Positions 3,918 through 28,504 of a stretch of 33,769 bases of DNA are shown here, one piece after another. How positions within the stretch are numbered: position 1 is the first letter of the stretch; each line of letters opens with the position of its first letter. The position numbers were made by a program, and so were the translations under genes. Source of the stretch: Chitinophagaceae bacterium (GTDB lineage Bacteria; Bacteroidota; Bacteroidia; Chitinophagales; Chitinophagaceae); assembly GCA_014379515.1 (NCBI GenBank), contig JACMLR010000310.1, positions 1-33,769 on the forward strand, in the 5' to 3' direction. The notes below the pieces were generated by a model that had not been told where the DNA came from, made no database searches, and saw only the letters and a list, made by a program, of their open reading frames with translations.

Positions 3918-5849
3918 ATGAAATCACTTCTTCTTACAAGCTTTATCCTTCTTTCACTTATTCATCCGGCAAAGGCACAACTTTGTACCGGCAGTTTGGG
4001 GGATGCCGTCGTAAATATCAATTTCGGAACAGGTACCGTTTTAGGGCCACCATTGCCTGGTGCCACCACTACTTACAATCACAGTTTTACGAGCTGTCCA
4101 AATGACGGACAGTATTCAGTCGTTAATTCAACTTCCAATTGTTTTTCCAACTCCTGGCATAGTCTTCCACAAGATCATACACCCACGGATGCAGATGGAT
4201 ATTTTATGCTGATCAATGCATCATTTCAACCGGGTGATTTTTACCTTGATACGATTCGCGGGCTTTGCCCAAATACCAGTTATGAATTTGCTGCGTGGAT
4301 CGCGAACGTGTTACGACCTGGATCGTGCAACAGCAACGGTATTCGTCCAAACCTGACGTTCCGAATCGAAGATCTCAATGGAAATGTTTTGACAACTTAT
4401 AACACCGGTGATATTATTTCAGGTAACACAGGAGAGTGGAATCAATATGGTTTGTTTTTTCAAACACCGCTTGGAATTCCGGATGTCGTTATTCGCCTCA
4501 CCAACAATGCACCCGGTGGATGTGGGAATGACCTTGCATTGGATGACATCACGTTTCGACCATGCGGACCAAAGGTGGATGCATCCGTAATTGTTACGGG
4601 CACTCCTGAACTATTTGCTTGTGAGAACGAAGCAAAAGATTTCATGCTATCGGCCACCTATTCGCAGGGAGTATATATTAGCCCCTCCTTCCAATGGCAG
4701 GAGAGCCTGGACAATGGTATTACCTGGTCGGATGTGCCTGGTGCAAATTCCAACAATTACTTACGGCCTGCGAGCGGACTTGGCGTATTTCTTTACCGCA
4801 TGTTGATTGCCGATGGAGGAGTGAACATAACACTAGTCACCTGCAGGTTGTCATCGAATACCGTTCGAATTGAAGTGGTTCAGCCGAACGTAGTGATCCC
4901 ACCCACATTTACGGGTTGTTTCGGAACTGATATCGCGTTAAGTGCAAGTGGCGGTGTGTCTTATTCGTGGGTCGGACCTAATAATTACGATAGCAAAATT
5001 CAAGGTGCGGTGATTACAAATGCCAACTTGAGTGACGCGGGCTGGTATAAAGTGACTATAACAGATACGCACGGTTGTACAGATCAGGACTCCACCACAT
5101 TGATAGTAAATCCCGCACCAACAACACAAGTTGTGGCAACAACTTCAGTTTGTGAAGGCGCTTCGACAAACATCCAGGCAAGTGGAGGCTTACGATATTT
5201 ATGGACACCTGCTTCCGGACTTTCATCCGATACAGTATCCAATCCGGTGGTTGCTCCTGTTGATACAACTTTATACACCGTGTATTCTTTTAATGAGTAC
5301 GGATGTTTCGATACAGCCAATACCCTCGTATACGTTTGGAAAAAACCGCTAGCCAATGCGGGGCCCGATAAGAAAATGACATCCGGTTACAGTGTAAAAC
5401 TGGATGGCCAAATTGCTGGTTCGGATATCGCCTATTATTGGACACCGACCTTCAACATTTCCAATCCCCTAATTCTTACACCGCTTGTTAATCCTGCAAA
5501 TAGCGCGATCTACACACTTCACGCAGAATCTACTCATGGCTGCGGAACGGCCACCGACGATGTGTTCATCAAAGTTTATGAGAAGATGCTAATCCCAAAT
5601 GTTTTTTCTCCGAATGGGGATGGGATCAACGATCGCTGGGTAATCGAGCCGCTGGATTTCTTCGCCAGTTCGGTCACAGAGATCTTCAATCGCTATGGGC
5701 AACGGGTCTACCGGAGTGTCGGTTACAACAATGCCTGGGATGGTACAATGAACAATCAGCCACTCCCTGTCGGTACCTATTATTATGTAATCGACCTAAA
5801 AATGCCGAATGAGCCTCTGCGAAGCGGCTCAGTAACCATAATACGGTAA
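3918..5849 (+). CDS. Secreted multidomain adhesin-like protein with T9SS type B (gliding motility-associated/CHU) C-terminal domain
   Basis: 643 aa with signal peptide (..HPAKAQLCTG), Ig/PKD-like repeats and C-terminal IPNVFSPNGDGINDRWVI...TEIFNRYGQRVYRS..NNAWDGTMNNQPLPVGTYYYVIDLK. Confidence 0.92.
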   Translation: MKSLLLTSFILLSLIHPAKAQLCTGSLGDAVVNINFGTGTVLGPPLPGATTTYNHSFTSCPNDGQYSVVNSTSNCFSNSWHSLPQDHTPTDADGYFMLINASFQPGDFYLDTIRGLCPNTSYEFAAWIANVLRPGSCNSNGIRPNLTFRIEDLNGNVLTTYNTGDIISGNTGEWNQYGLFFQTPLGIPDVVIRLTNNAPGGCGNDLALDDITFRPCGPKVDASVIVTGTPELFACENEAKDFMLSATYSQGVYISPSFQWQESLDNGITWSDVPGANSNNYLRPASGLGVFLYRMLIADGGVNITLVTCRLSSNTVRIEVVQPNVVIPPTFTGCFGTDIALSASGGVSYSWVGPNNYDSKIQGAVITNANLSDAGWYKVTITDTHGCTDQDSTTLIVNPAPTTQVVATTSVCEGASTNIQASGGLRYLWTPASGLSSDTVSNPVVAPVDTTLYTVYSFNEYGCFDTANTLVYVWKKPLANAGPDKKMTSGYSVKLDGQIAGSDIAYYWTPTFNISNPLILTPLVNPANSAIYTLHAESTHGCGTATDDVFIKVYEKMLIPNVFSPNGDGINDRWVIEPLDFFASSVTEIFNRYGQRVYRSVGYNNAWDGTMNNQPLPVGTYYYVIDLKMPNEPLRSGSVTIIR

Positions 5850-9096: not shown

Positions 9097-10365
9097 TTAT
9101 GGTGTGGTTACACCGGTTGCTTTAAGCAACTTATATGGTTTTCCTTGTTTGCCAGCTTTTAGAAAATACATCCCCGCATTTAATGATTGGATGTTGATCG
9201 TTGTCAACGTTGCCGTGATCTTTACTTGCGACACTTGTTGTCCAAGATGATTATGAATCGTTATGAATTGCCCGATTAAATTTTCGCATTTGCTGATATC
9301 AACCGTTACAGCATTCACAGCGGGATTTGGATACATACGAATCGCGATGTCCGCCGCAGGTGCTACCGGCGCAACTTCCGGTAATGGAATCCCTGTTGCT
9401 CCATTGGACGACAATAAGGCATTGTGTGCGCCGCCCTTTGCAAACGATGCACGCATTTTATCACGTTGCCCGTTGGTAAACATATTCATGCATTCATCAT
9501 TGGTCAAATCCATGAAATTGTTGTACATGTTACCCAATGGAAGGTTACTACAGGTTGAAATCACACCAGTGGGACAACCTCTTGTTGCATTTCCTTGTTG
9601 CGGTGTATCATCAACCCCATCACTGCCACAAAACTGATCTCCCCAGATATGCCGGAGACCCATCCAGTGACCCAATTCGTGAACAGCAGTACGGCCTTTG
9701 GTATAAGGTGCTTGTACGGTTCCCGCATTTCCAAAGGCTGTATATCGAACTACAATACCATCCCGAAGTTTATCCGCACCAATTACGCTGGAATAGCCAA
9801 TGATTCCAGCCGACAGGTTTCCCACCCAGATATTCAGGTATCGATCACTATCCCACGCATCATCACCGCCCGCATTGGAAAACTTGATTTTATCATCCAT
9901 CCCAAAACTAATCGACGAGGTTTGTTTGCGAACAATACCGCTGGTAGCATACCCTTGCGGATTTACTGATGCCAAAACAAATTCAATATGAACATCGCTG
10001 GCGGCACTGCGAAACCGAAGTGGGATTTGTGCAGTATCCTTATGAACGAGTCGAAAATCATTATTCAAGACTGATATCTGGGACATTATCTGTTCATTGG
10101 AAATATTTTGTTCCCCTTTATTGAAGAGAATATGAACGACAACCGGGATGCGAATAACGCTTAAACTTCCAGATCCGATTGCACCGGAAATAACTTCAGA
10201 ATTGAATGAACCTGAACCAGCCAGCGGTTGCTGCATGCGATATAAGATGGAGGGATCACGTCGGGTTTCCTGTTGTTCATACTCCAGTGATACGCAGGTC
10301 GACTGCGCGAATCCATGAAGTGAACAAAATAACGTCAAGGCAAAGGCAAGTAAAACTGATTTCAT
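9097..10365 (-). CDS. M43 (pappalysin/cytophagalysin-like) zinc metalloprotease with T9SS type A C-terminal sorting domain
   Basis: 422 aa; signal peptide (..SLHGFAQSTC), zinc motif HELGHWMGLRH, Met-turn region NNFMDLTNDECMNMFTNGQRDKMRA, C-terminal MYPNPAVNAVTVDIS...LNAGMYFLKAG. Confidence 0.94.
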   Translation of the reverse strand: MKSVLLAFALTLFCSLHGFAQSTCVSLEYEQQETRRDPSILYRMQQPLAGSGSFNSEVISGAIGSGSLSVIRIPVVVHILFNKGEQNISNEQIMSQISVLNNDFRLVHKDTAQIPLRFRSAASDVHIEFVLASVNPQGYATSGIVRKQTSSISFGMDDKIKFSNAGGDDAWDSDRYLNIWVGNLSAGIIGYSSVIGADKLRDGIVVRYTAFGNAGTVQAPYTKGRTAVHELGHWMGLRHIWGDQFCGSDGVDDTPQQGNATRGCPTGVISTCSNLPLGNMYNNFMDLTNDECMNMFTNGQRDKMRASFAKGGAHNALLSSNGATGIPLPEVAPVAPAADIAIRMYPNPAVNAVTVDISKCENLIGQFITIHNHLGQQVSQVKITATLTTINIQSLNAGMYFLKAGKQGKPYKLLKATGVTTP

Positions 10366-11546: not shown

Positions 11547-12446
11547 TCAACTTTTTGAGATGACATAAATAAGTGAACTACACACCGATTTATTCGTAGC
11601 TGCCCTTAGGTTGGATTGGAATCCGCGAAATACTCCGCTAACAAAACCCTCTTTACCTGTTTTGTATTTTTCACTGAGCATGCTTACATAAAAACTATCG
11701 AACCACATCGGTTTGATGGAATCGAGTTGTAGCTCATTGTGCCGCAACAATTGTTTCATCGATGCAGGTGAGAAATGATAAAGGTGTCGGGGTACATCAT
11801 ATGCAGCCCAAAACTTTCCATAAAATTCTGCATCGCCAGAAGTATAGTTGGGAACGGCTATAAAAATCTTCCCTCCTGCTTTCACCAACTTTCGGAGTTG
11901 AACGATATAAGTCTGAAGTTGATGCACATGTTCGAGCACATGCCACATAGTAATCGCATCAAAACTTTCCGCAGGCAACTCAAACAAATGATTGGTTGAC
12001 AATAATGATAAGCCGTGATTTTTATTTGCAACTATTCGTGCTTGCTCATCCGGCTCAAGCCCGGTGACGCGCCAACCGGCAGATTTCATAAAGGCTGAAA
12101 ACGCACCAGTACCGGCACCAACGTCAAGCAGGCTTCCGGAGTTCAGACCGGTTGCCGACTGAATCAGCGATGACTTTTGCTTTAATGTTATTTTTCTGAC
12201 GGAATGATAAAGCCGATTGATGATTCCTTTATTCGTATCGGTGTGAGAGATATAATTTTCCGATTGATAATATCGTCCGATTGATTGCTGATCCGGAACA
12301 TGTTGAGTAAAACGCAATGTGCAATCCGCACAATCCCAAAGCTGAAAGTTTTCGTTGGAAACGGAATAGTCTGTTACGGTTATACTATTGCTGATCGCAG
12401 TGCTTCCACAAACGGGGCAATGGGTGTAGGTAATCAGGTTACTCAT
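11547..12446 (-). CDS. Class I SAM-dependent methyltransferase with N-terminal zinc-ribbon-like motif
   Basis: 299 aa; N-terminal CPVCG...CADC, SAM motif LLDVGAGTGAFSAFMKSAGWRVTGLEPD, and FDAITMWHVLEHVHQLQ. Confidence 0.92.
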   Translation of the reverse strand: MSNLITYTHCPVCGSTAISNSITVTDYSVSNENFQLWDCADCTLRFTQHVPDQQSIGRYYQSENYISHTDTNKGIINRLYHSVRKITLKQKSSLIQSATGLNSGSLLDVGAGTGAFSAFMKSAGWRVTGLEPDEQARIVANKNHGLSLLSTNHLFELPAESFDAITMWHVLEHVHQLQTYIVQLRKLVKAGGKIFIAVPNYTSGDAEFYGKFWAAYDVPRHLYHFSPASMKQLLRHNELQLDSIKPMWFDSFYVSMLSEKYKTGKEGFVSGVFRGFQSNLRAATNKSVCSSLIYVISKS

Positions 12447-12480: not shown

Positions 12481-13101
12481 TCACCGGGAAATGCTGGTTT
12501 TGTTTTGATTTCCTAACGATGAAATAGAAAACCCGTTTGTATAGAAATGGAAGAAAAGGATTATTAATGCAATGGCAACAATTATAATTGCGAATATCCA
12601 CCACCGGCTTCTTTCGCGTAGCGGTTCCTCATGAATCACATCCACTGCCTGATCGTTGGTTAATTCTCGATCACCAACTAACACCGTATGTTTTGCCTGG
12701 CTTCTAATTACACGCACGGCAGCCACGGGTTGAAGATATGCTGGCACTTGTTTTTCCGCCTCAAAAACGATATCACCAGAATGATCTTTGTGTAAAAGTC
12801 CTACCCCTTCCAACCTGATTGGATTATCTGTTCTGATTCGATTCCGCAGTTCATACGCCCACTCATTGTACCAGCGAATGGCTTCATAATCCGCCATATC
12901 GCGCTGTAGTGCTAAATAGGTAAAAAAATCTTTATCGGGAGCATCGAAATATTTGTCGAATCGATAATGATATGAAGGAGGCAGCAATTGTTTGTTAACG
13001 AAATCGCTTTGCGCGGGTACGCGCTCAATGAAGATCGTTCCGAGTCCGGGTATACTCAAACTTTTATGCTGCAAAAGATAATTGTACAATGCACCATTCA
13101 T
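12481..13101 (-). CDS. HU-CCDC81-like domain protein with a single C-terminal transmembrane helix
   Basis: Likely start is ATG at 13101 (MNGALYNYLLQHKSLSIPGLGTIFIERVPAQSDF...). The N-terminal LSIPGLGTIFIER and the LLPPSYHYRFDKY region resemble Bacteroidetes HU-CCDC81 domains. TM helix RWWIFAIIIVAIALIILFFHFY, then a ~20-aa tail. Confidence 0.65.
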   Translation of the reverse strand: MNGALYNYLLQHKSLSIPGLGTIFIERVPAQSDFVNKQLLPPSYHYRFDKYFDAPDKDFFTYLALQRDMADYEAIRWYNEWAYELRNRIRTDNPIRLEGVGLLHKDHSGDIVFEAEKQVPAYLQPVAAVRVIRSQAKHTVLVGDRELTNDQAVDVIHEEPLRERSRWWIFAIIIVAIALIILFFHFYTNGFSISSLGNQNKTSISR

Positions 13102-13205
13102 AGCTGCGAAGCAACAGGTTTTTAATGTATCGGCAAAATTAAAACTGAGTACGAGGGTCAATCAATTTGGAGCCTCAGAGACAAGTTCCATTGGAGAGCG
13201 GCTAT

Positions 13206-14855
13206 TTATTTACGTTGATTGAAGGAATATGTTATTCCTCCGAGAATGTTGAAACCAAAAGTTTCGTACTGGTGCCAGCGTTCGTATTTATTATTGAGGA
13301 TGTTATTTAACTGTATCCAAAGATTGAAGTTCTTAGTGATTCGGAATTCAGCACCGGTATTTAGATCGAAGCCGGTTTCTCCTTTGTAAGCTTCTCCATT
13401 TTCACCCTGGTATTGCGCGCCATCCCATGCCCAAAGATCGGCACGCAGCCAAAGATCTTTTAGTAACTGCCATCGAACTCCTGCGTTTAATTCTAGCGGA
13501 ATCATACCCCAGGCCTTCTTTTCGCGTTGCAATTTGGTGAATTGATTAAAGTTTAATGAAGCTGAGGCAGAGAATTGTTCTCCCTGTGTGTATTCAACTT
13601 CTCCATGCAACTGAAGCACCTCCATGCGAGGTTCGTATTTGATGAGGAAAGTTTTACCGTCGATCGTATCGTTGACGAACAATGGCGTGTTTCTGAATTG
13701 CTGGAAGCCCACTTTGGCAGAGTAAGAAAAGTGATTGCTTACAGAACCTTTGAATCCTGCATAACGTTCCTGTACCCGTGTATTAAACAAGGAGTCAGGT
13801 TGCGCAAGCCATGGATTGATACCGGCAAAACGCTGATAACTTCCTTTATTATAATATCCGATCCAACCGAGCTGAAACGTAAAGCGTTGATCATTGGTGG
13901 TGATGTCTGCCATTACATTTGGTAACATCGTAAATACCTTATTATCCCATGATGGTCGCAAACCACCATGAATATAGACGTTTGGCGTTTTTAATAACAC
14001 CGCGGGAGAGATATAATAAAGATTGTTTTGCCGCGTAAATTTTGCATTGCCACCAACCTGGTAGGACGTCAGATCCGCTGTTGCACCGAGAGTGAATGCA
14101 AACATCTTTCCGAATGTTTTTTCCAGTGGCAGATCAAGAACACTATTCGATTCGTTGCCCTTGTTCGATTTATTGTCAGAAAACACACTCACGCGCAACG
14201 ACGGATGATAAGTAAGGCCAAATTCAGTAGGAATTGTATTTCGCAAATGGACAACTCCCTCAATGGTTTGAAAATTCTGCTTCAGGTCTTTTTTCTCAAA
14301 TGGAAGCGTCTCCGGTCGGAAACCATAGAGATAATAATTGTCGCTTACAAAACCCAATTTACCATTCCATTCAAGATGTTTTGGTGTTATATACGTGGCA
14401 GCAGCACCCACTTTTGTCAAACTGTGCTTTTGAAATTTGAGGTCTCCATTTGATGTATAGTGTTCAGCAAACACATTAAAATAAGTCGACTTTCCATCGC
14501 CGAAACTGAACCCTGCCTTGATATATGGCAAGTGAACGTTACCAACGCCGACTTTTATAAAATTGCTGTATTGCCATGCGTTCAGTGAATCAATACTAAG
14601 TGCTACTGGTTTTAGTTCCGCAGGTTGGTAAGCGAAAAAAAGATTCTGCGATGGGATATTATAATTGAGGGTTGGTCTGCTGCTATCTACAACAGGTGGT
14701 GCGGCGTTGAAATTTATTTTTGATGCTTCGCGAAGCACAGGCTTAAATGTCGAAGTGATATCGATACTTTTTTTACGCGTTGTATCCTGTGCCTGTGATT
14801 GGCTGGCGGCAACGAGTATCGCTAATATCAACAATATCTTTCCGGAATTTTTCAT
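13206..14855 (-). CDS. Outer-membrane beta-barrel protein, TonB-dependent-receptor-like but without an evident plug domain
   Basis: Likely start is ATG at 14855 (MKNSGKILLILAILVAASQSQAQDTTRKKSIDITSTFKPVLREASKINFNAAPPVVD). The mature part is mostly alternating beta-strand pattern, ending FNLWIQLNNILNNKYERWHQYETFGFNILGGITYSF. Confidence 0.8.
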   Translation of the reverse strand: MKNSGKILLILAILVAASQSQAQDTTRKKSIDITSTFKPVLREASKINFNAAPPVVDSSRPTLNYNIPSQNLFFAYQPAELKPVALSIDSLNAWQYSNFIKVGVGNVHLPYIKAGFSFGDGKSTYFNVFAEHYTSNGDLKFQKHSLTKVGAAATYITPKHLEWNGKLGFVSDNYYLYGFRPETLPFEKKDLKQNFQTIEGVVHLRNTIPTEFGLTYHPSLRVSVFSDNKSNKGNESNSVLDLPLEKTFGKMFAFTLGATADLTSYQVGGNAKFTRQNNLYYISPAVLLKTPNVYIHGGLRPSWDNKVFTMLPNVMADITTNDQRFTFQLGWIGYYNKGSYQRFAGINPWLAQPDSLFNTRVQERYAGFKGSVSNHFSYSAKVGFQQFRNTPLFVNDTIDGKTFLIKYEPRMEVLQLHGEVEYTQGEQFSASASLNFNQFTKLQREKKAWGMIPLELNAGVRWQLLKDLWLRADLWAWDGAQYQGENGEAYKGETGFDLNTGAEFRITKNFNLWIQLNNILNNKYERWHQYETFGFNILGGITYSFNQRK

Positions 14856-14907
14856 TTTTATTCTCTGATTGTAGTCTGTCCTAAATTCAGTAAAATCCAC
14901 GCACTAA

Positions 14908-17900
14908 TTATTGATTGCTGTTTTCAACTTTACTACCTTTCTTTTCCTCTTCTTCAGTAAGTTTTAATTTACGCTCGGCTTCCTGACGAAGATCCTCAAG
15001 TTTTGCATTTTCAATTACGCTTTGGTAAGTTGCTTTTGCATTGAAGAAATCATTTTGTTTAAAATAAACATCACCCAACAAGATATAAGCTTTTGTAACC
15101 CAGAGTTCATAGGAGCCAGCTTTATTGACGACTTCAAACGCTGCTTTTTCTGCATCCGGGAAACGATTCTGAATGAAAAAGAGGTTTGCAATTTCATATC
15201 GCGCTTCTGCACCATACGCTGCTTTGCTAAGTGCAACCACATTTCTGTACGCCGTGATTGCTTCGTTATACTGCCCTCCTGCCTGGTGCGACCGTGCGAT
15301 AGCGAGATTGGCAAGCACTTTATCATCGGTTCCAATTCCTTTCTGACTTAAGAGGTCTTTCGCATTTTCCGTTGCGTCCGACCATTTTTGCAATTGAAAC
15401 TGGCTTCTCAGTAAACCACGCATTGCCTCCAGTTTTGTTTCTTGTGACGTTGCAAACTCCTTCAGTTTACCAAAATACTTTTCAGCCTTCTGGTAATTTT
15501 TGAGGTCAAAGAAATTTAACCGCGCGGCATTAAGCAATGATTTTTCACCAAACTTATTTGGAACGCGATCCGATAATACTTCATACCCACTGGCGGCTTT
15601 TACCCAATCCTTTTGATTAAAATAAATTTCGCTCTTATAATATAATGCCTCGAGTGAGTGCTTGCCTTGCGGGAATTTTTCCAGGTATTCTTCAAACTCT
15701 TTTGCTGCTGCAGGGAAGTTGCCATTGTTAAATTGGACTTCGGCTTCCTGGTACGCAAGTTCTTCTTCCTGGTTAGTGGAAATCTCCTTCCCCATGCTCC
15801 GGGCAAAGCTGACATATTCGCCTGTTCTGCCCTCTTCAACATAAATTACTTTGGCATTATCCAGTGCCTCTTCGGCTTCCGGTGAATTTGGAAACTGTTG
15901 AAGCAATGCCGAGTACTGCTTAAGTGCCTCTGCATTATTCTCCAGGTTGAAATATGCAATTCCCAGTCTTAGAAAAGCGCGGGGCTTCAACGAAGAGTTT
16001 GGATCAGAAATGACATTTTTCAAAAATGGAATCGATTCGCGATACTGCTCATTCGCCAAATAGCTACCGGCAATTTCCATATTGGCGTCTGGTATGAGAC
16101 TGCTTGTTGGATACTTGCGACTGATACCGGTCAGCATATTGATTTTTTCCTTGCTGCTTGAGATACCGGCGATCATTGCATTTTGAAAGGTGGCGTAATC
16201 GGATGATGGCCACGAAAACTCAAGCACTTTATCATACATGCTTTTCGCCTTCTTGTAATCACGATTCATATAGTGACAATCGGCAATTCGCAAGTATGCA
16301 TCTTGCTCGAGTGACGGAGAATTTATCCGGGGTGTTGTCACAAGTTGTTCGAAGAATCCAAGAGCCTGGCGATAGTTTTCTTTTTTGATGAAGCTATATC
16401 CAAGATTATATTTTGCATGGTTCGGCGAGACTTCACCATTGGAAGCGGTCGTCTTGAGGTAGTCAAAGAAATATCGGATAGCATCATCGGTTTTACCAAG
16501 CCTGTAAGCAATCTCACCTTTCCAGAATTGAACGAAGGGTAAAACCGATTCATTATCTGGAAGCGTTTCGGCGCGCGTCAGTAATTCATTAGCGGTTACC
16601 AGCAACCCATCATTGACCATTTCCGTGGCGCGGCCATATAATATTCTTGGATACAATTTGCGGGCAAGTGGCGACGGAGATTTTAATCCTTCAATCAATG
16701 CTAGAGCGTCCTTGTAATTGTTTGTGTTTGCTAATACACCAACTAATAACTCACGAGCTTCTGTATTGTATTCGGATTGCGGATATTTATTCAGAAATTT
16801 TTCCAGTTCGGTAAGTGCTACATCCTGGTACCCGAGTTCGTAAGATAATTTTGCATAATTGTACATCGAGACCTGGCGCTGTGCATCATTGCTGCTATTA
16901 GCAGAACAAAAAAGAAACGCGTTTCGTGCGTTTGCTTTTTGACCGGTTTTAAGATATGCATCTCCCAACAGGTACATTGAATTCTGAGCAAGCGAATCTT
17001 CTTTGCCACCAAGCTGTTTAAATCCGGCAATAGCCTTGTTCCAATTTTTTGCATCGTAATAGCAATAAGAAACTTCGTAGAGATCTTCGCGGGTTACTTT
17101 GTCGGCTTTCGCAATATAGCTTTCGAGGTATGGAAGTGCTTTTGCATAATTCTTCTGAAGAAAATAGCCATGGCCAACGAGCTGCTGCATTTCCTTCTCG
17201 TAAGACAGGTTACCGCGCTTTAGCTTGTTTTCTGCATAATCAAATGCGGCTTTCTTATCATTGCCCATGTAATAAATGACAGAGATGTAATAGGGCGCAA
17301 CTTTGCCATACTCGGGATGATCCTCGACAACTTTGAACGCATCCAGTGCTTCTTTATACTGCTTATCATAGAATGCAATGAAGCCGTAATAATAATTTGC
17401 TTCCGCATTATTCGGATCACTTTTCGCAACACGAATTTCATTTAATAGTGGCTTTGCGCGATCATATCGTTGAACGGTGAAATAAGAATACCCCTGGTGA
17501 AATTTTTTATCTGCTATTTCGCGGTTGCTGAGATTATCGATACTTACCTGATCGTAGAGGTCAATCGCCTTTGCAAAATCTGCGGATCGAAAATAATACT
17601 CGGCAAGATGGAAGCTCATCATTTGAACTCGTGCTTCATTATCTTCCAAACCAATGAAGTCTTCTGCTTTTCTTCTCGCCCCTTCTTCATTTTGTTTTAG
17701 TCCGCAAACAACCGTGTAGTATTTTAATTCCTGGTATTCGATCGCATTATTGCTCCGATCGGTTTCGCGTTGCTGGAGCTCAAGATCTTTCAGAATTGGG
17801 TATGCCAGGCTGTACTGCTCCCGTTGAAAATATTCTTTCGCTTGTTTGAATGAACCTTCAGGGTCAGTAAAAAAACGCGTTTGTTGCGCGAAGAGAGAGA

Positions 17901-17946
17901 AAGAAGTGAGACCAAGAATCGTTATAATGAGCGCTGCTTTTTTCAT
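14908..17946 (-). CDS. Large exported tetratricopeptide-repeat protein
   Basis: 1012 aa; signal peptide (..TSFSLFAQQTRFF) and many TPR-like repeats, e.g. AEANYYYGFIAFYDKQYKEALDAFKVV and PRAFLRLGIAYFNLENNAEALKQYSALLQQFPNSPEAEEAL. Confidence 0.93.
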   Translation of the reverse strand: MKKAALIITILGLTSFSLFAQQTRFFTDPEGSFKQAKEYFQREQYSLAYPILKDLELQQRETDRSNNAIEYQELKYYTVVCGLKQNEEGARRKAEDFIGLEDNEARVQMMSFHLAEYYFRSADFAKAIDLYDQVSIDNLSNREIADKKFHQGYSYFTVQRYDRAKPLLNEIRVAKSDPNNAEANYYYGFIAFYDKQYKEALDAFKVVEDHPEYGKVAPYYISVIYYMGNDKKAAFDYAENKLKRGNLSYEKEMQQLVGHGYFLQKNYAKALPYLESYIAKADKVTREDLYEVSYCYYDAKNWNKAIAGFKQLGGKEDSLAQNSMYLLGDAYLKTGQKANARNAFLFCSANSSNDAQRQVSMYNYAKLSYELGYQDVALTELEKFLNKYPQSEYNTEARELLVGVLANTNNYKDALALIEGLKSPSPLARKLYPRILYGRATEMVNDGLLVTANELLTRAETLPDNESVLPFVQFWKGEIAYRLGKTDDAIRYFFDYLKTTASNGEVSPNHAKYNLGYSFIKKENYRQALGFFEQLVTTPRINSPSLEQDAYLRIADCHYMNRDYKKAKSMYDKVLEFSWPSSDYATFQNAMIAGISSSKEKINMLTGISRKYPTSSLIPDANMEIAGSYLANEQYRESIPFLKNVISDPNSSLKPRAFLRLGIAYFNLENNAEALKQYSALLQQFPNSPEAEEALDNAKVIYVEEGRTGEYVSFARSMGKEISTNQEEELAYQEAEVQFNNGNFPAAAKEFEEYLEKFPQGKHSLEALYYKSEIYFNQKDWVKAASGYEVLSDRVPNKFGEKSLLNAARLNFFDLKNYQKAEKYFGKLKEFATSQETKLEAMRGLLRSQFQLQKWSDATENAKDLLSQKGIGTDDKVLANLAIARSHQAGGQYNEAITAYRNVVALSKAAYGAEARYEIANLFFIQNRFPDAEKAAFEVVNKAGSYELWVTKAYILLGDVYFKQNDFFNAKATYQSVIENAKLEDLRQEAERKLKLTEEEEKKGSKVENSNQ

Positions 17947-24600: not shown

Positions 24601-27549
24601 CTAGAAAGCCTTTTTCTCTGCGGAAGTTTCCGTCCCCCACTCTATTCCTTTTACAGTTGCAGGAACACCATCGGTAATCCATTTCGCTGGTGGCGCACCT
24701 TTCAGGTGATAGTCAAAAAATTGCGAAAGTCGAATCGAGAGATCTTTCCTGTTTCTTCTTTCAACCAGGTTATGATCTTCATCATTGTACTGGAGCATCC
24801 ATACTTTCTTATTGAGTCTCCGGAGTGCAGTGAAATATTCAATTCCCTGGTACCAGGGAACTGCACCATCTTTATCGTTGTGCATGATCAGTATGGGCGT
24901 TGTTACTTTATCTGCAGTAAACAGTGGTGAGTTCTTAATGTACAAATCGCGTTTCTGCCATAACGTTCCACCAATCCGGCTTTGAGAGTGTTCATATTGG
25001 AATTGACGGTTCAAGCCGCTACCCCAGCGGATTCCACCATAAGCACTGGTCATATTGGCTACTGGCGCACCCGCACCGGCGGCTGCAAACATTTTTGTAC
25101 GGGTAACTAAATATGCAACCTGGTAACCACCCCAACTTTGACCCTGGATAGCCATCTTCGTGCTGTCTACATATGGCAACTTTGATAAAACCTTTGCGGC
25201 AGAAACAACAGAATTGTATGCGCTTTCACCCGGGTTTCCATCTTTATAATAAATGTTCGGATCAAACACCAGGTACCCGTTGCTAACGAAGTAAGGGATA
25301 TTGATGGTTGAAGCACTTGGCGCGGGTGTACGATAGTTATACAATCCATCCGCGTCGCGTTCGTAGAAATAAAATATGACAGGATATTTTTTCTTGGGAT
25401 CGAAGTTCTCCGGTTTGAACAATAAACCTTCTGATTCTTTTCCGTCAAACATTTTCCATTTTACTAATTCCGCACTCAGCCAATTGTAGTCTTTTTGTTG
25501 TTGGGCGATGTCTGTAAGTTTATTAAACTCTTTCAGATCTCCTGTCCAGAAAAGTTCAGATTCATTGATATTGGATTTCTGAACGATGAAGCGATCACTT
25601 TTCTTTGCTTTGATAACACTATTGAACGAAGCTGGAAGTGAATTGATTTGAACCGGTTTCACTTTCTTCGCGAGGTCGAGTGTATAGAAACCCTCATACT
25701 TTGTAGAGAAATTGAACGAGCGTAATAACACCTGCTCACCATCTTTGATAAAACGATTCTCGTTATCAGTGCGAACATATCTCAACTCAGCTTTCGTTGC
25801 CCGGCCGATACCATGAGTAATGTTTACAGGCGCCGATTTTCCTTGCGGATCAACTTCCCATATATCGTATTTGTCGTAGATTAAAACAGTCTGGTCGTTC
25901 TCCGTCCATGATGGTGCGCCGTGTGGTGGCGGATCATCCGGGTGATCATCTTCCTCATCCCACAAAGGAAACTTGATGTCTTTGCTGATGTTGGTCGACA
26001 CGCCGGATTCAACATTGTAAGTGAAATAATTCTTTGCTTTCCAATCGTACCAAAGAACAAACCTGCCTTTCGGCGAAATCGAATAAAAGGCACGTAGCTT
26101 ATCAGAAACTTTTTTTCTCGAGCCATCTTTGGTAGAGATAAGATATGCGGTTTGCCTTGCGAAACCTTCCCACTGGGCAGAAACACGACTGTCTTTGCTT
26201 GATGTTGCCATCACAAAATCCGCGTTGCCTTCATCGGCCAGGGATACATTTTCTGCATCTTCTGCGCCAAGTGTAACAGGCCTGGAATCGGTACCATTAA
26301 AAACGGCGAGGTAACTGCGGCGCAGTTCCTGGGAGGCGTTCACCAATTGCTGCGGTTGCAGATAATCGTCATTGTAATGCCATACATCCAATCGGGCAGT
26401 TTCAAAATCAACGAGGGTCGTATCCTTTGGTTTACGAATTTGTGTTAGTCCAAAAAATAATTTATTTCCATTTTGACTGAACTGGTTATTATAATCCGGG
26501 CTAACAGTTAATCCCTTTACAACTCCATCGGTATTTCTATCTGCACGAAGAGTCGCACTGTCATTGCCTGCTTTGAAATAATAAAGTTTATAAAATTTGG
26601 TGAGTGCTTTTACTGCGCTATCCCGTTCGGCAACGAAAGCCAACTGTGTACCTGCCTCATCGATTGCATAACTTTTCGCGTCATTGAATTTCCTGAAGAT
26701 AGTGTCGCTCTTTCCGTTGCTGGTACTAACCCAAACCAATGCTGCCTGGCTCAGTGTATCACTGTTTTTGCGCGTCGTCTCTATCAATAAAACATTGCCG
26801 GGTTCGCTAAAGAAATACTCGGCAACCAAGGGATACTTCTTTTCTTCTTTTGTAACGAGATTATACAATATCAATTCAGTTCCTTCTTCAACTGGGTCAG
26901 TCGGTTTCGTCGCCGGCTTGACATCCTTTTTCGGTGCCTGCAAAACGGTTAGACCTTTAATCTTTGCCTCATTTGCTTTGTTCCGAATGCTATCTACAAC
27001 GCGCATAAGGCTGTCTGCCATGCGCGTCAGGTTGTTCAATTGCGTAAGTGAATCCAATGCAGCTTTCGGTTTTCCTGGTTCAGAAAGGGCTTTCTCGAGA
27101 TGATAAGCGATCCAAACGCCATCGCCTTTTTCTGGTGTTTTAAAGTTTTTTACTCTTGGAATTTTGCGGACGCTGTCCAGCCCCAATTCCATAATACCGA
27201 GCGTATCCTTCGGCATTTCGTCGGGACGCTTCTTTTTTATTCTTGCATCACGCGTGTCCTTAAATGCAGGACGAATTTTAAATACCAGGTATTTGTTATT
27301 TTCTGAAAATCGGGGAAGGTAACCGCGCGGAATTTCTTTTTTAAAACTGTTATCGAGTCCATGAATATACATGGTTCCATCACCTTCTTGCGGGTTGATG
27401 CTATAGACGACCCATTTGCCGTCACTGCTGATACTCCGTTCCCCTGCACTTTTCCAGCCATCATAAACGCTATGTTCAAGCGGTTTTTTTTGTGCGAGTA
27501 AAATAGCAGGTAGAAATAGCGCAACGGCCAGCTGCAATACATTTTTCAT
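24601..27549 (-). CDS. S9 family peptidase (prolyl oligopeptidase family), secreted
   Basis: Likely start is ATG at 27549 (MKNVLQLAVALFLPAILLAQKKPLEHSVYDGWK). Nucleophile elbow GQSWGGYQVAYL, acid region MHNDKDGAVPWYQG, histidine region NDEDHNLVERRNRKD. Confidence 0.94.
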   Translation of the reverse strand: MKNVLQLAVALFLPAILLAQKKPLEHSVYDGWKSAGERSISSDGKWVVYSINPQEGDGTMYIHGLDNSFKKEIPRGYLPRFSENNKYLVFKIRPAFKDTRDARIKKKRPDEMPKDTLGIMELGLDSVRKIPRVKNFKTPEKGDGVWIAYHLEKALSEPGKPKAALDSLTQLNNLTRMADSLMRVVDSIRNKANEAKIKGLTVLQAPKKDVKPATKPTDPVEEGTELILYNLVTKEEKKYPLVAEYFFSEPGNVLLIETTRKNSDTLSQAALVWVSTSNGKSDTIFRKFNDAKSYAIDEAGTQLAFVAERDSAVKALTKFYKLYYFKAGNDSATLRADRNTDGVVKGLTVSPDYNNQFSQNGNKLFFGLTQIRKPKDTTLVDFETARLDVWHYNDDYLQPQQLVNASQELRRSYLAVFNGTDSRPVTLGAEDAENVSLADEGNADFVMATSSKDSRVSAQWEGFARQTAYLISTKDGSRKKVSDKLRAFYSISPKGRFVLWYDWKAKNYFTYNVESGVSTNISKDIKFPLWDEEDDHPDDPPPHGAPSWTENDQTVLIYDKYDIWEVDPQGKSAPVNITHGIGRATKAELRYVRTDNENRFIKDGEQVLLRSFNFSTKYEGFYTLDLAKKVKPVQINSLPASFNSVIKAKKSDRFIVQKSNINESELFWTGDLKEFNKLTDIAQQQKDYNWLSAELVKWKMFDGKESEGLLFKPENFDPKKKYPVIFYFYERDADGLYNYRTPAPSASTINIPYFVSNGYLVFDPNIYYKDGNPGESAYNSVVSAAKVLSKLPYVDSTKMAIQGQSWGGYQVAYLVTRTKMFAAAGAGAPVANMTSAYGGIRWGSGLNRQFQYEHSQSRIGGTLWQKRDLYIKNSPLFTADKVTTPILIMHNDKDGAVPWYQGIEYFTALRRLNKKVWMLQYNDEDHNLVERRNRKDLSIRLSQFFDYHLKGAPPAKWITDGVPATVKGIEWGTETSAEKKAF

Positions 27550-27607
27550 TCCAGTAGTTTTTGGTAGCTTGAAGATAACGCATGAAGCTGCTACACGGAA
27601 TTTTTTA

Positions 27608-28504
27608 CTAATTGTTTTGATGAATGGCAGATGGATTTTTCCGATCGCGATAAACGCGGATGGTTTGCAGTACAACGGCGAGTAAAATCAGGCTCAATCC
27701 TGCATAAAAGCCACCAGTGAGCAGTTCATTTTCCTGGTAAACGAGGAAGGCCAGAATGATTCCATAAACCGGCTCGAGGTTATAGGTTAGGTTAACGGTA
27801 AACGCGGAGATCTTTTTTAAGGCATTCGCGGAAAGTTGAAATGCCCAAACAGAACATAGCCACGCGAGGATCAAAAGCCATCCCCAGTCGGATGATGTTG
27901 GAAAAAAATAATTTGTTGGAAACAAATAGACATAAACAGGCATCAACACCGTAAGCGCCAACAACCCGCCGGTGAGTTCATAGGTCATTAATGTTTCTGT
28001 ATTCATTCGCTTCACAAAAATGCCGTTGCAGATCGGGAAAATCGATCCTAAAAAAGCGGAAACCAGTCCAACAAGGATCCCGGTTTTGTACGCGGGATCG
28101 AAATGAAAGATGATGAAAATCCCCGCCATCACTAAGAGGCCAAGTAATAATTCGACAGCGCGAAATTTTCTGCCTGTAATGAGTGGTTCGAGAATCGCAG
28201 TAAAAAAACCGACCGCAGAAAAACAAACAAGTGCAACGGACACGGTTGAATATTTGATCGAAGCAAAAAAAGTCACCCAATGCAGAGAAGCAATTACGCC
28301 AACACCAGCAACCTTCATGATGTCTTTTTTACTAAGCCGATGCAGCTTCTTCATCAATGCAAATAAAATCCACATCGTGACGGCGCTGATAAGTAATCTC
28401 CACCACACAAGTAATGCTGCATTAAGTTCAATAAGACGACCTAAGATTCCGGTCAACCCGGCAAGAAAAACAGCAAGATGAAGTTGGATGAAGGCTTTCC
28501 GCAT
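27608..28504 (-). CDS. DMT family (EamA-domain) transporter
   Basis: 298 aa with ~10 hydrophobic segments and two EamA-like halves (ASLHWVTFFASIKYSTVSVALVCFSAVGFFTAILEPLI; NLTYNLEPVYGIILAFLVYQENEL). Confidence 0.94.
   Translation of the reverse strand: MRKAFIQLHLAVFLAGLTGILGRLIELNAALLVWWRLLISAVTMWILFALMKKLHRLSKKDIMKVAGVGVIASLHWVTFFASIKYSTVSVALVCFSAVGFFTAILEPLITGRKFRAVELLLGLLVMAGIFIIFHFDPAYKTGILVGLVSAFLGSIFPICNGIFVKRMNTETLMTYELTGGLLALTVLMPVYVYLFPTNYFFPTSSDWGWLLILAWLCSVWAFQLSANALKKISAFTVNLTYNLEPVYGIILAFLVYQENELLTGGFYAGLSLILLAVVLQTIRVYRDRKNPSAIHQNN

Follow-up and report, generated by a model that had tools for sequence, protein, structure and literature searches.

How the outer membrane is tethered and constricted in Bacteroidota without tol-pal is an open question, in a phylum that is dominant in the gut and in the environment. 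The Tol-Pal system of Proteobacteria comprises TolQ, TolR, TolA, TolB, Pal and CpoB. A 2025 survey finds no identifiable tol-pal locus in Bacteroidetes, proposes PorE for outer-membrane tethering in these bacteria, and suggests that further outer-membrane-stabilising systems are still to be found (PMC12204202). Here we ask whether three neighbouring genes could belong to such a system. They lie in the window, by which we mean the whole stretch of 33,769 nucleotides analysed, from a Chitinophagaceae metagenome assembly near the named relatives Niastella, Pseudoflavitalea and UBA3961.

The open reading frames of the window place a TPR gene, a barrel gene and an HU-CCDC81-type gene in tandem on the minus strand. 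The TPR gene (14908-17946) starts at an ATG and encodes 1012 aa, with a MKKAALIITILGLTSFSLFAQQ signal peptide and Pfam TPR repeats. The barrel ORF spans 13206-14900, with 549 aa encoded from the preferred ATG at 14855 (13206..14855), and the HU-CCDC81-type ORF spans 12481-13161, with 206 aa from the preferred ATG at 13101 (12481..13101); taking these two starts gives intergenic gaps of 52 bp and 104 bp. The initial annotation had described three consecutive minus-strand genes with these lengths and gaps, encoding a signal-peptide TPR protein, a plug-less outer-membrane beta-barrel, and a protein with an HU-CCDC81-like N-terminus and one C-terminal transmembrane (TM) helix. The ORF coordinates agree with the arrangement, and the Pfam matches and AlphaFold2 models described below bear out all three proteins. 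It had missed a SAM methyltransferase gene (11547-12446, minus strand) that lies 34 bp downstream of the HU gene and is probably co-transcribed with the three-gene cluster. The methyltransferase adjoins the HU gene in 27/38 family loci and is not adjacent to it outside the family, and we rule it out as a core component because its adjacency is limited in this way. One Flavobacteriaceae-like genome, in which HU and barrel are unlinked, has a close-looking homologue (L138:3-755) at a distance of about 4.5 kb from its HU-SPOR gene. Two further proteins of the window are likely to be T9SS cargo: an M43 metalloprotease carrying a Por_Secre_tail domain (9097-10365) and a CHU_C-domain protein of 643 aa (3918-5849). 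The window also encodes a prolyl-oligopeptidase-family (S9) protein of 1024 aa (24601-27675) and a Porin_10 outer-membrane protein (863-2920).

The barrel protein matches no Pfam family above cut-off, and the plug domain (PF07715) gives no match up to E 0.1. Its AlphaFold2 model (mean pLDDT 86, with most of residues 96-549 above 90) has no plug and about 21-22 strands by DSSP, which fits a TonB-dependent transporter barrel of the 22-strand type. The Foldseek matches listed for it are all TonB-dependent transporters, including BtuB (E=1.6e-16, TM about 0.63-0.65), and a profile search matches the C-terminal barrel of PfeA (E=2.6e-7). A single-sequence search finds no solved homologue of the whole barrel, and the profile gives C-terminal barrels of TonB-dependent transporters only. 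By this model, the protein has the barrel of a TonB-dependent transporter but lacks the plug, and it illustrates the reuse of this barrel type in plug-less form. Its fold and strand number rule out the BAM subunit BamG, which in Bacteroidota BAM complexes is a 14-strand FadL-like barrel (PMC12578637, PMC12611786). Residues 1-95 are disordered in the model. Within them, residues 24-95 (14571..14786, minus strand; pLDDT about 50 or less over most) form a predicted periplasmic tail, and these roughly 70 disordered residues stand in place of the missing plug. TonB boxes occupy the N-terminal tail position of TonB-dependent transporters, and that is the position of this tail. Aligned tails share a phylum-conserved pattern around IDITSTFKPVLREASKI. 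By eye, the tails of deep relatives begin in a TonB-box-like way (ELPDFVITG, LPEFIVTG, EEIVVTTA); those of most of the class begin with a pattern like VxVxxxYxPxLxxAxKI, and the tail in the window, with IDITSTF, diverges from the TonB-box-like forms.

The 206-aa protein carries both HU-CCDC81 domains (PF18174/PF18175) in tandem and correctly ordered, with Pfam matches below the curated cut-offs to HU-CCDC81_bac_1 at residues 8-50 (E=0.0018) and to HU-CCDC81_bac_2 at residues 62-118 (E=2.2e-5). The second HU-CCDC81-like domain, which we delimit as residues 57-118 (12748..12933, minus strand), also finds HU folds in Foldseek. Orthologues give stronger matches, to HU-CCDC81_bac_2 in 17/18 and to HU-CCDC81_bac_1 in 11/18. 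The AlphaFold2 model shows HU-like folds and one helix, and HU structures are among its Foldseek matches. The best of all matches is to a sea urchin sperm doublet microtubule (8snb, chain 1K, E 4.6e-3, 141 columns), in a chain that is perhaps CCDC81 itself. The helix, at residues 167-189 (12535..12603, minus strand), is the predicted TM helix; RERSR precedes it, and by the positive-inside rule the HU domains would therefore be cytoplasmic. About 17 residues follow the helix, and there is no C-terminal SPOR domain. As SPOR is present in order-level HU relatives (L147, L158, L160-L163, L165), and in deeper ones too, its absence here indicates a loss. The stretch that joins the HU domains to the TM helix contains a strongly conserved segment, AVRVIRxxAxHTVLVGDRE (residues 130-150; 12652-12714, minus strand), with the Chitinophagaceae consensus AERVIRxxAxHxxLVGDxExT. 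AlphaFold2 models it as a beta hairpin at low confidence, and it may have come to stand in for SPOR, or it may bind a partner. Our literature search, with preprints and most subscription papers outside its scope, found no papers on HU-CCDC81.

The TPR protein is predicted from its signal peptide to be exported and periplasmic, and Pfam places TPRs along its whole length. It has BamD/YbgF-like repeats and a weak match to TPR_Slam, and its PDB matches are generic or designed TPRs only. We rule out that it is PorW/SprE (NCBIfam NF052312, 67.5 bits against a cut-off of 250); other named TPR families score far below their cut-offs or give generic repeat matches only.

Do these three proteins belong together? 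The barrel is found in 57/61 genomes of the family and order, once in each, with one copy split over two contigs. Among family and order loci with enough flank, the TPR gene lies directly upstream of the barrel in 61/61 and the HU gene directly downstream in 59/60, an arrangement that is thus not due to chance. Farther out, a barrel profile matches 71/74 genomes of the class and 125/297 of a phylum sample. We took 80 regions from the order, class and phylum and assigned their gene order with profiles, anchored on the barrel; three regions (L105, L176, L184) were left out, as we judged the barrel to be absent there or the match to be an ordinary TonB receptor. The remaining 77 loci span 33 families, many of them outside the class (beyond Chitinophagaceae, clades are named by inference from their gene content). 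The TPR gene is adjacent upstream of the barrel in 68 of the 77, an HU and/or SPOR protein is adjacent downstream in 52, and the TPR-barrel pair stands alone in 23. As a control, the family-level neighbours DoxX, PBP4-type peptidase, DUF6526 and glutamine cyclotransferase appear in 0/40 regions outside the family. In an independent PF18175 scan, 35 genomes have an HU match no more than 3 kb from the barrel, where about 0.2 would be expected; this count is not to be read as a probability since the genomes are related, though their families are diverse. The initial annotation had proposed one envelope module, with its fate hanging on co-location beyond close relatives; the barrel-anchored gene order, reaching 33 families, supports it.

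In 30 of the 77 loci, from 10 families, TolQ/ExbB and TolR/ExbD genes follow, usually with a TonB-like gene. The fullest order is TPR, barrel, HU/SPOR membrane protein, TolQ/ExbB, TolR/ExbD and usually a TonB-like protein, and it occurs in Sphingobacteriales- and Cytophagales-type loci (L071-L074, L088-L092) and in deep families (L096-L102, L167-L172, L174, L175, L178, L180-L182, L185, L186). Some full-type loci are without one member: TPR is unlinked in families f41 and f43, and L101 has no SPOR. In L072, FolC comes next after the operon. Pfam matches among operon members include MotA_ExbB, ExbD, SPOR and TonB_C, and the ExbB genes of L072 and L099 have TolQ as their top named match. The TonB-like protein has a membrane helix and a long linker, with TonB_C in L099 and a C-terminus similar by sequence in others.

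Where the operon is incomplete, its parts are found elsewhere. Chitinophagaceae genomes mostly have two ExbB-type genes, of about 290 aa and about 240 aa. The shorter one, beside ExbD, nests among the operon ExbBs at 100/97 in the ExbB tree, and that of the window genome, on another contig (G000:C306), falls in the same clade. The group of about 290 aa, far from the operon clade, we take to be the Ton-system ExbB. No TonB-like gene is seen beside the relocated motor in Chitinophagaceae. A TolQ-type ExbB is present in 14/14 genomes checked, including those in which only TPR and barrel are linked, and a full-length TPR orthologue is present elsewhere in genomes where the gene has left the barrel locus; the component set is therefore far more conserved than its linkage. 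In Flavobacteriaceae-like, Weeksellaceae-like and Bacteroidales-like genomes, only TPR and barrel are linked and HU-SPOR lies elsewhere; in some clades, the TPR-barrel pair may thus act without HU and motor. In Flavobacteriaceae-like genomes (L139:3942-4505, L141:4985-5593), the HU-CCDC81/SPOR gene adjoins what by sequence is an apparent acyl-CoA thioesterase; Tol-Pal operons also encode a thioesterase, YbgC. From the wide linkage, motor included, we infer that the window carries a reduced form of an old TPR-barrel-HU/SPOR-TolQ-TolR-TonB operon. The envelope-spanning system of the initial annotation stands, but it had been proposed without an energy source; the wider comparison adds a TolQ/ExbB-TolR/ExbD motor, a TonB-like protein, and a periplasmic SPOR domain on the HU protein.

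What, then, would the system do? Building on the gene set and order, domain make-up, predicted folds and orthology of the unlinked motor given above, we see about an even chance that this three-gene cluster represents, in Chitinophagaceae, an ancient trans-envelope system that extends across the Bacteroidota and acts in the manner of Tol-Pal but is distinct from it. Powered by the proton-motive force, the TolQR-type motor would drive the TonB-like arm, and the arm would pull on the outer membrane through the exposed N-terminal tail of the barrel, the long TPR solenoid, or both. The HU/SPOR protein would connect the system with the cytoplasm, and forms that have SPOR would also connect it with denuded septal peptidoglycan. 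Most probably, the system would serve to keep the outer membrane attached and to pull it inwards as the cell divides. In the lineage of the window, the operon would have split, with TPR, barrel and HU staying together, SPOR disappearing and the TolQ/TolR pair relocating to a different locus; without SPOR, a septal role would be weakened in this clade. More tentatively, at somewhat less than even odds, the operon may be an unrecognised functional replacement of Tol-Pal across Bacteroidota and related lineages, driven by the proton-motive force, gripping the outer membrane via barrel and TPR, and linked by HU/SPOR to septal peptidoglycan and cytoplasm. The 2025 survey does not mention SPOR and we found no passage in it on this locus (PMC12204202); preprints or subscription papers may hold an earlier description.

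A wide plug-less barrel is unnecessary for a simple tether and favours a transport role. As it seems more than a tether would call for, the main rival is an energised pore for export or insertion at the outer membrane, in which the barrel would be the channel, the TPR protein of about 1000 aa the substrate receptor, and the TolQR-TonB motor would open it for surface lipoproteins, polysaccharide or lipid. The transporter architecture without a plug suits such a pore, as does the conservation of TPR and barrel as the most frequent pair (68/77), a pairing that recalls Slam through the weak TPR_Slam match. We nevertheless find it unlikely, as the cluster has no conserved substrate gene next to it, a link to the cell cycle or peptidoglycan accounts better for the SPOR and HU domains, and so wide a pore would need gating by an unseen partner.

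Alternatively, TPR and barrel could form a housekeeping complex for the assembly or stabilisation of outer-membrane proteins, with HU/SPOR and motor merely frequent neighbours in a growth operon. The published Bacteroidota BAM has BamG and not this barrel (PMC12578637, PMC12611786). The 23 pair-only loci, where the two stay linked with HU, SPOR and motor elsewhere, would agree with such a complex, and so would the BamD/YbgF-like repeats; linkage with SPOR and TolQR recurs in deep families from both sides of the phylum, which makes such a complex improbable in our judgement. A part in type IX secretion or gliding is very improbable, for although the window encodes T9SS cargo and the TPR protein weakly matches PorW/SprE, that score is far below its cut-off (67.5 against 250), the cluster also occurs in deep families of the phylum, and the motor here is of TolQR type whereas GldLM is the T9SS motor.

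The proposed Tol-like system can be set against several known ones. Like other HU-CCDC81 proteins of Bacteroidetes, the one in the window has tandem HU-like domains and a TM helix; it differs in scoring below the Pfam cut-offs and in having no SPOR, which most relatives carry. Orphan HU-CCDC81/SPOR proteins thereby gain conserved partners in TPR, barrel and motor. The Agl-Glt gliding machinery of Myxococcus xanthus, compared by its description, also combines a proton-motive-force motor and TonB-like arm with periplasmic TPR proteins and outer-membrane beta proteins, but without HU/SPOR, and it is not conserved in Bacteroidetes (PMC3169522). PorE is likewise a candidate for the missing Tol-Pal role, but as a proposed CpoB-TolB-Pal fusion tether it is a single lipoprotein with a peptidoglycan-binding domain and no motor linkage described (PMC12204202). 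With TonB-ExbB-ExbD and its transporters, the system shares the barrel fold, the tail in TonB-box position and, in deep members, an ExbBD-type motor and TonB_C. It differs in the missing plug, in an ExbB of the TolQ-type clade, apart from the ExbB of about 290 aa in the same genomes, and in its fixed TPR and HU/SPOR partners and mostly single copy. TolB (TolB_N, PF04052) is detected in 1/42 genomes, with positive controls matched, and by eye and Pfam no OmpA-type lipoprotein gene for Pal lies between or beside the operon genes in selected loci; with TolB absent from 41/42 genomes and no Pal gene in the operons, the system is not a member of Tol-Pal. In place of TolB and Pal, its outer-membrane partner is a plug-less transporter-type barrel; the TPR protein is roughly four times as large as CpoB, and an HU/SPOR membrane protein is added. 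It shares with Tol-Pal the TolQ/TolR-type motor genes, a putative TonB/TolA-like arm, a periplasmic TPR protein, the operon organisation and the envelope-spanning layout. Being conserved, mostly single-copy and equipped with a motor of its own, the locus is a concrete, testable candidate for a Tol-like role.
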